The translations under genes and the position numbers were made by a program. Under the pieces are notes generated by a model, which did no database searches, had not been told where the DNA came from, and was given only the letters and a program-made list of their open reading frames with translations. A stretch of 64,000 nt of DNA from Doris montereyensis (taxonomy: Eukaryota; Mollusca; Gastropoda; Nudibranchia; Dorididae): contig JAXRKP010000047.1 of the NCBI GenBank assembly GCA_037039925.1, positions 292,501 through 356,500 on the forward strand, written 5' to 3'. Positions 33,901-35,097 of the stretch are shown in pieces; position 1 is the first letter of the stretch; every line of letters begins with the position of its first letter.

Positions 33901-35097
33901 TATGCTTAAGTAAAAGTAAGTTCCTTTGAGCCTTTGAGGTTCATTGGTCTAAAGTTGAATCCACTTCCTGTAGCAATAAATACAACAATGTATGATATAT
34001 GCACAGGATGCTGGTCAATCACAGTCTTCATTTCTCAACTATCACACTAGTTTCCTTTCACACGTTGGCCATAGTAAAGAGATGGGAGAATTAACTGTCT
34101 TTCCAAAGAACACTTCATCAGGCCAAGCAAACCTAGGATTTGAACTCACAACCAAGCTTTAATTCTGCTATCTACCACTAGACCAAAGAACAAAATAAAA
34201 AGCACAAAAAAGTTATGCTTTTTGCTATCCATTTGCCTGAGTGCAACAACGGTAAAAGCTGTGTGATGGCCACCATTCTTTGAGTATTAAAATATTAAAT
34301 GATAATTTACAATGTATTTATATCTTGCCTGCTTTCACACTTTCAGTGTCCCTGTATTTCAAAAGACAGAGCAATATCGACCATCCTGCAGATAAAGCTC
34401 ATGTTTTCTGGATTCTCTATAACATTATGTTTTCTGTTTCTCCATAAAATACCTCTTGTTGCTTTCATTTAACGGTGTTCAAAAACAACATAAAATTAAG
34501 ATAAAATGCATAGCCCATGAGACCTCAAGGTAAAATTTTCAATCTTGGTTAACTTAACAATTTTTCCCTCAGGATGAGATGGCTTCAAGAGGAAGGCAGT
34601 CCACAGAGTCATATTACAAAATGTGTTTTCAGTAATGAAAAGACTATTGCAAGTCTTTCTTTTTCGAGTTTCACCATAAGAGGCTATTGACTGACTGTTC
34701 TGATGTTGATGTTAATATTGACTTTTTAATATTTACTGCACAAGAATTTGACTTTGACTTCCCACCATTTGTGTTCTCCTCTTCCTGATGTAACATCTTT
34801 TTTGTTTTGTTTTTTTTGTTGTATTGATTGGTATCTGTTTGTTGATTGTACTGACTGAATTCATGTCAATGATATCTTGCCCAGGACAATTAAAATCAGT
34901 AAAATTGTTATTATGTTGCTGCTTTCCCCATCTTTAACAATTTAAATTTATCCAATGATTATTGTTTTCTTCCTTGTAGGAAGCAGTGGCTTCGAAAGAA
35001 AGGCAGCCCAAAATCAAGAATTGACAAATGTGAATTCAAAGATGAGAAGATAATAGAAGAAAATTCATATTCCAATTTTTCCATAGTAAAAAGATAA
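29409..35097 (+). CDS. ACYP: Acylphosphatase with alternative terminal exons
   Basis: Acylphosphatases hydrolyse the carboxyl-phosphate bond of acylphosphates; they are small cytosolic alpha/beta enzymes of about 98 residues. Coding exons: 29409-29463 (MATGALKSVSFEVFGRVQ), 31009-31025 (17 nt), 32403-32512 (YTHSAAQKLGLVGFVQNT and on), then either 34573-34690 or 34980-35097. Either choice gives exactly 99 residues. The catalytic Arg falls at residue 23 (GVFFRK) and the catalytic Asn at 41 (VQNT), the canonical numbering. The ATG context is good. Phases agree at all junctions. A polyadenylation signal AATAAA follows at 35502-35507. The promoter is probably shared with CFAP73. No frameshift was seen in this gene. 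Confidence 0.95.
29461..29632. repeat. TAGATC-rich stretch in acylphosphatase intron 1
   Basis: Clustered AGATCTAG words occur immediately after the first donor and again at about 29580-29632. They are the same palindromic motif seen at 24-64, 633-690, 2084-2114 and 35738-35925. Confidence 0.8.
30779..30957. repeat. AAT/GATAAT microsatellite
   Basis: (AAT)n with TGATAA variants, interrupted by about 60 bp of unique sequence at 30826-30885. It ends only about 50 bp before the 17-nt microexon. The Asn-rich frame across it is not a gene. Confidence 0.9.
31009..31025 (+). CDS. ACYP: Acylphosphatase 17-nt microexon with catalytic Arg23
   Basis: Flanked by TTCTATAG and GTGAGT, it completes the Gly codon from exon 1 and encodes VFFRK. 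The Arg is the substrate-phosphate binding residue of acylphosphatases. Skipping it would both shift the frame and remove the active site. Confidence 0.93.
31600..31850. repeat. Unclassified repeat-like segment with internal inverted repeat
   Basis: It contains GGTCTATTGCATACT and, about 60 bp on, AGTATGTAATAGACC, its inverse with one mismatch, followed by related CCAGCTATAG/CATAGCTGG words. Phrases such as GTGGAACAGATGATA recall the SINE body. It lies in the acylphosphatase intron between 31025 and 32403. Its origin is uncertain. Confidence 0.4.
32731..33275. repeat. Dispersed repeat, copy 1
   Basis: It starts ACACTCAAACCTTGTTATAC and shares blocks with 35955-37425: TTTGTAC-GATCTGAC, TGTAAAATACAACTC, CCCCCTTC, GATCACAGAGTCA, and later CAGTGTCA, GGCTAATCC, TGAGTTAG and GTGTTT. 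No transposase was seen. It lies in the acylphosphatase intron before the alternative exons. The ACTCAAACCTTGTTATA start resembles Tc1/mariner-type ends, but the other end was not found. Confidence 0.6.
33915..34195 (-). mobile_element. Diverged SINE-like element
   Basis: It keeps the family layout in reverse: AAGTTCCTTTGAGCC at the left, a CAGGATGCTGGTCAATC block, TTTCCAAAGAACACTTCATC, GGATTTGAACTCACAACC (inverted B-box-like) and CTACCACTAGACC. It is much more diverged than the other copies. It lies in the acylphosphatase gene just before exon a. Confidence 0.6.
34573..34690 (+). CDS. ACYP: Acylphosphatase alternative last exon a (ACYP2-like end)
   Basis: After CCCTCAG the exon reads MRWLQEEGSPQSHITKCVF, then SNEKTIASLSFSSFTIRGY and TGA at 34688-34690. 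The GSP-S-I-C-F pattern is shared with the exon 290 bp downstream. The NEKTI and FTIR residues recall the vertebrate muscle-type (ACYP2) C-terminus. Both last exons splice from the same donor (AT/GTATGT at 32512) in the same phase. Confidence 0.9.
34980..35097 (+). CDS. ACYP: Acylphosphatase alternative last exon b (ACYP1-like end)
   Basis: After CTTGTAG the exon reads MKQWLRKKGSPKSRIDKCEF, then KDEKIIEENSYSNFSIVKR and TAA at 35095-35097. GSPKS-ID and a final IVK recall vertebrate ACYP1. It is the same length (118 nt) as exon a. The AATAAA at 35502 follows this exon. Confidence 0.92.

Follow-up and report, generated by a model that had tools for sequence, protein, structure and literature searches.

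How does a single acylphosphatase gene of the nudibranch Doris montereyensis come to be followed by two complete last exons, and would both of them be used to finish the enzyme? Acylphosphatase, a small enzyme on which much research into folding has been done, has an arginine and an asparagine as its catalytic residues (PMC13044899). We studied this question in the window, which is the whole stretch of 64,000 nucleotides analysed here. We propose that it very probably contains one acylphosphatase gene with a tandemly duplicated last exon, and that the choice between the two copies is made by alternative splicing together with polyadenylation, as predicted from the arrangement of exons, splice sites and relatives described below.

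The features of the gene are collected in Table 1. The initial annotation described one shared donor and two in-phase last exons, and these coordinates and sequences were reproduced. Exons a and b are each 118 nt long including the stop, and each completes a 99-aa product. All introns of the gene have GT-AG ends. The exon 3 donor reads GAAAT/GTATGT, the acceptor of exon a ...TTTTTCCCTCAG/GATGAG and that of exon b ...TTCTTCCTTGTAG/GAAGCA, with pyrimidine tracts of 76% and 82% at the two last-exon acceptors. Tail a has the C-terminus NEKTIASLSFSSFTIRGY, while tail b carries GSPKSRID and terminates in IVKR, just as had been described. We also observed that the microexon, with its phase-1 junction, encodes GVFFRK, the phosphate-loop residues including the catalytic Arg23; skipping these 17 nt breaks the frame.

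Table 1. Features of the acylphosphatase gene, in positions of the window
Feature	Position	Strand	Remarks
Exon 1, coding part (ATG ... VQ/G)	29409..29463	+	donor GTAGAT; spliced product matches PF00708
Exon 2, 17-nt microexon	31009..31025	+	acceptor TTCTATAG, donor GTGAGT
Exon 3 (YTHS...KIKEM)	32403..32512	+	holds Asn41; donor GTATGT common to both last exons
Predicted alternative last exon a (...SPQSHITKCVFSNEKTIASLSFSSFTIRGY stop)	34573..34690	+	
ATTAAA, poly(A)-like signal	34889..34894	+	3' of exon a, 5' of exon b; hexamer match only
Predicted alternative last exon b (...SPKSRIDKCEFKDEKIIEENSYSNFSIVKR stop)	34980..35097	+	
ATTAAA, poly(A)-like signal	35118..35123	+	3' of exon b; hexamer match only
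AATAAA	35502	+	also downstream of exon b; hexamer match only

The first ATTAAA lies 199 nt past the stop of exon a. GTAT at 34821 and 34831 was all that a simple scan gave from this stop to exon b; no donor of the GTRAG type was present. The lack of such a donor, together with poly(A)-like signals after each exon, indicates an alternative-last-exon layout, and we infer that splicing and polyadenylation are coupled so that exons a and b would be mutually exclusive. A simple scan for splice-control motifs near the two exons, for which the chance level was not computed, gave no outstanding motif and no Fox site.

The spliced product belongs to the acylphosphatase family, since the two isoforms score 80.2 and 87.0 bits against the PF00708 profile (cut-off 22.5) and carry R23 in VQGVFFR and N41 in VQNT. 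The Arg23 and Asn41 columns are invariant in a 10-row alignment that includes the window and in a 47-row alignment of relatives. Both isoforms are predicted to hydrolyse acyl phosphates. We searched the assembly (513 Mb, 3500 contigs) with PF00708 and both isoforms, scoring the best candidates exon by exon, and found no second credible acylphosphatase locus among the best-scoring candidates. Exon 3 was the one PF00708 match given for the assembly, and beyond the exons of this gene the sole match was stop-bearing (E=6.3). Within the window, tblastn with both isoforms and with a crab head-plus-middle segment identified no third tail and no second middle exon. Gene counts in insects are 2, 6 and 2 in bee, fly and mosquito, respectively (PMC1847477).

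Exons a and b are related to each other, with 69 of 118 positions identical in DNA and 17 of 38 in protein; the best other ungapped identity to exon b, among 118-nt stretches from the end of exon 1 to 34450, is 52/118. The BLOSUM62 score of tail a against tail b is 87, a value reached by none of 20,000 residue shuffles of tail a, whose maximum was 25. We had considered chance open frames, and these were ruled out by the intact signals, the frames and the shuffle test. Both tails keep W64, L65, G69, S70, P71, S73, I75, F80 and F94. They differ in charge, with many lysines in tail b (RKKGSPKS...IVKR) and a more acidic character of tail a at the corresponding places (QEEGSPQS...IRGY). The flanks, compared over 150 nt per side, are not clearly alike (best ungapped matches 55/150 and 51/150, with no shuffle control). 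Together with the modest identity of the exons themselves, this speaks against a recent copy and for an old duplication.

Three protein searches yielded 270 relatives (the best 120 each of 305, 201 and 7521 matches), so a lineage whose pair is missing from this set may still have alternative tails. Among these relatives and the two proteins of the window, 11 rows switched tails, namely the window, eight named pairs and two rows that were dropped before counting (P0002/P0073, from two Frankliniella species, and P0163/P0166, metagenome proteins); a middle-exon row from two ant species (P0044/P0048) was dropped as well. The named pairs come from Aplysia, Physella, Biomphalaria, Tubulanus, Lingula, Thrips palmi, Frankliniella occidentalis and Schistocerca, of which Tubulanus is a nemertean, Lingula is a brachiopod, and the thrips (two genera) and locusts are insects. 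In all eight, residues 5-61 are identical, the tails are 39-62% alike and the switch falls exactly at 61/62. This is the residue of the window's intron, which implies a common intron position. The isoforms of the relatives are mostly predicted database records (X1/X2), and six of the eight pairs, whose two members lie on contigs of equal length, apparently come from one record each (Aplysia, Physella, Tubulanus, Lingula, Thrips palmi and Frankliniella occidentalis); the Schistocerca pair consists of two species and the Biomphalaria pair of two contigs that differ in length, and both were retained in the count. The pairs thus have the same head and two-tail layout as the window, whereas their tails differ from the window tails at about half of the residues. 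A Frankliniella gene model runs through both tails, the non-K tail first and the SPKS tail second, in the same order as in the window. This model, P0002 of Frankliniella occidentalis, joins most of one tail to nearly all of the other, and it is probably a prediction error exposing tandem exons.

The proposal that exons a and b are alternative last exons gains strong support from this comparison, in which relatives show the same head, two tails and the same switch residue. Both endings look real on these grounds, and we infer that both exons are used in Doris montereyensis mRNA. In two crabs, Eriocheir (P0009/P0087) and Scylla (P0010/P0052), a homologous segment also alternates in the same gene, but there it is residues 25-61, including Asn41, while the tail stays constant. 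The alternating crab segments are identical at 21/37 and 19/37 residues, and their borders fit exon 3 of the window. With tails switched in several lineages and the middle in crabs, exon swapping is recurrent in the acylphosphatase gene.

How the two tails arose is a separate question from whether they are used. In a tree of the common head, the window joined the heterobranch gastropods with support of 92.9/91 (71.6/73 for the heterobranchs without the window); the alignment of the horse row was off by one residue, and its place was ignored, although the supports carry this flaw. In the tail tree, support of 83.9/75 united tail a with the a tails of heterobranchs; tail b stood beside a scallop and not with the gastropod b tails, at low support (84.2/49). 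We then compared eight constrained tail trees over 38 columns. A separate duplication of its own exon in each gastropod and in the window was rejected by the AU test (0.031), bp-RELL and c-ELW, and neither by KH (0.079) nor by SH (0.314). The AU values of the other trees were 0.618 for gastropod orthology, 0.559 for a parallel with vertebrate ACYP1/ACYP2 (window only), 0.415 for a pair ancestral to the sampled spiralians, 0.413 for tail a alone with the heterobranch a tails, 0.363 for an all-ancient pair, 0.36 for a window-only duplication and 0.194 for an independent origin per lineage. The tree with the ACYP parallel had the best likelihood of those compared, slightly above the unconstrained tail tree. 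The initial annotation had called for such a tree of last exons, and over these few columns it keeps the parallel, at 0.559 for the window only and 0.363 for all pairs, together with its rivals at 0.36 and 0.194.

For the origin of the pair, we somewhat favour the explanation that the last exon was duplicated independently and recurrently in different lineages, that the gastropod event predates the heterobranchs compared, and that the likeness to ACYP1 and ACYP2 reflects convergence or chance. This concerns origin and is compatible with alternative use of the two exons. Exon swapping has arisen more than once in this gene, as the two crabs alternate the middle exon, and tandem exon duplications are reported to have arisen convergently in many cases when human, fly and worm are compared (PMC9741552). 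A score of how consistently the tails pair across six lineages was reached by 24% of independent-origin and 95% of common-origin simulations, and the mean score of the latter was twice as high, so this score leans to an independent origin. On the other side, the lineage-wise tree was the second worst of the eight, with a bp-RELL value of 0.029, and a signature of three characters, described below, crosses phyla. When the window was scored against the heterobranchs only, a shared gastropod origin and a window-only duplication were not separated.

Vertebrates have two acylphosphatase genes, ACYP1 and ACYP2, and the PDB holds structures of both types, common and muscle (2w4p and 1aps). The initial annotation had likened tail a to ACYP2 and tail b to ACYP1. 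The vertebrate proteins are of the same family and the same length, and the ends can be set side by side, IRGY of tail a with VRY of horse ACYP2 and IVKR of tail b with IVK of ACYP1. Over the whole tail, this resemblance did not hold, as tail a is identical at 18/37 positions to both horse ACYP2 and human ACYP1 and tail b at 20/37 to both, with horse as the one sequence on the ACYP2 side; three further ACYP1 proteins matched tail b at 18 to 21 of 37. In contrast to the two vertebrate genes, the window has one gene, and its whole tails sort with neither. The part that stood is the rare aromatic end of tail a. The motif F.[IV][RK]G{0,2}[YFW] occurs in 3/269 database proteins, each of them one member of an alternative-tail pair, and is absent from the other five named pairs. 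The IVKR end of tail b had to be given up as an ACYP1-like feature, because V97 of the IVK end is also found outside vertebrates, for example in Nematostella, Owenia and Mizuhopecten.

A profile built from heterobranch a against b tails placed ACYP2 and ACYP1 only 1.3 bits apart, a gap equalled or exceeded by 92% of random tail pairs. We rejected this profile as a classifier; it sorts the window pair correctly by 18.1 bits, yet 15% of random pairs match this. The Lingula and Thrips pairs are sorted in this way too (16% each), but no sorting was obtained for Tubulanus, Schistocerca or the vertebrate pair. Residue 72 alone (K or not) was also discarded as a marker, being uninformative with K in 119/274 tails. 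A triple signature, consisting of a residue other than K/R at 72, [ST]N at 81-82 and a Gly/aromatic end, is carried by tail a, Aplysia X1, Tubulanus X1 and Lingula X2, and by horse ACYP2 as judged by eye. It occurs in 5/269 database proteins against 0.68 expected, and three of the five are pair members, which none of 20,000 permutations reached, although the characters were picked with the data already in view and kinship was not accounted for in the permutation. The remaining two carriers are fly and jellyfish proteins, and in Physella, Biomphalaria, thrips and locust the a tails show the triple in part only.

These observations bear on a second explanation, that the a/b pair is ancestral to bilaterians and that vertebrate ACYP2 and ACYP1 each retained one ending after gene duplication. 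Like the first explanation, it deals with origin and does not conflict with alternative splicing of the two exons. The signature common to the three phyla and horse ACYP2, its excess among pair members, the likelihood of the ACYP-parallel tree and the survival of the all-ancient tree in the AU test all argue for it. Against it stand the whole-tail identities, which show no preference, the inconsistent orientation of the pairs over six lineages in the simulations, and the post hoc choice of a signature that is shared with fly and jellyfish and is incomplete in several a tails. We consider such an ancestral pair unlikely, and the ACYP1/ACYP2 parallel is given here as a lead, not a result.

A duplication specific to the window, or an assembly artefact, is very unlikely. 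The tail test does not reject a window-only duplication, but the divergence of the exons and their dissimilar flanks argue against a recent copy, and tail a clusters with the a tails of heterobranchs. That one exon is functional and the other a decaying duplicate unused in mRNA is the least probable of these readings, given that a and b both have an intact frame, acceptor and stop at equal length, that nine residues from W64 to F94 are kept in each and that relatives have two-tailed counterparts.

We return to the reading of one gene with two alternatively used last exons. The last exon of a single animal acylphosphatase gene would have been duplicated in tandem. The donor at 32512 would be joined to exon a, with polyadenylation near 34.9 kb, or, past exon a, to exon b, with polyadenylation beyond 35.1 kb. 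The two predicted enzymes would have residues 1-61 in common, including the phosphate loop, Arg23 and Asn41, and would differ in residues 62-99. The latter take in the last part of helix 2, then loop L4, which lies next to the active site, and finally strands 4 and 5 with the C-terminus. Since Arg23 and Asn41 are constant while the active-site surroundings vary, the choice of tail should tune activity, stability or partner contacts, and it would neither create nor abolish catalysis. The isoforms may accordingly differ in activity, stability or the docking of substrates. Pump phosphoenzymes are known as acylphosphatase substrates.

In the E. coli acylphosphatase, L4 adjoins the active site (PMC13044899). 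The carboxylate at the C-terminus of that enzyme is able to contact its catalytic Arg and Asn, and this interaction has been connected with thermal behaviour and with protection against domain swapping (PMC13044899). The contact between Arg and the C-terminus is absent in mesophilic acylphosphatases (PMC13044899). The window tails extend two residues beyond the equivalent position 97, so the exact E. coli contact is predicted for neither. F94, described as a conserved folding-nucleus residue (PMC13044899), is present in tails a and b alike.

Tandem duplicated exon substitution events are swaps of mutually exclusive homologous exons, in which C-terminal swaps are enriched in human (77/236 events) and convergence between phyla is seen (PMC9741552). 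In the window, two homologous adjacent exons of the same phase follow one shared donor, as in those events, where two homologous tandem exons are likewise swapped in the transcript. We thus regard the gene, as predicted, as a new instance of such a tandem duplicated exon substitution. It differs from the events described there in that the swap, beside the active site, would affect 38 of the 99 residues that make up a one-domain enzyme. ACYP or acylphosphatase is not mentioned in the main text of PMC9741552. Among the matches listed in our literature search, no report of alternative acylphosphatase tails was found in titles or the starts of abstracts, and such tails are not mentioned where PMC4512098 and PMC1847477 deal with acylphosphatase.

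If these predictions hold, whole pieces of a single domain are swapped repeatedly through exon duplication: crabs exchange the middle, and molluscs, a nemertean, a brachiopod, thrips and locusts exchange the tail. The isoforms would provide natural enzyme pairs in which the catalytic residues are identical and the environment of the active site differs. Should the pairs turn out to be orthologous, they would illustrate how a splice choice can pass to a duplicated gene, and if the ancestral reading is true, the splice choice in snails, nemerteans, brachiopods and some insects would be the forerunner of the human gene pair.

Several other features were observed in the window. Two related, broken LINE-type elements lie on the + strand at 19960-22022 and 47400-50059. 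The latter has an endonuclease domain (PF14529) in 47715-48404, and its part at 49547-50059 has no Pfam match; the likeness of the former to it was judged by eye from open frames. Exons of a protein tyrosine phosphatase were identified on the - strand at 45689-53687, with PF00102 in 45689-45898 and 51757-51957 and the rest assigned by eye. Coiled-coil-like exons are found on the - strand at 24410-28850, with no Pfam match in the one piece tested, and this gene stands head to head with the acylphosphatase gene at a distance of about 560 nt, its start being placed by eye.
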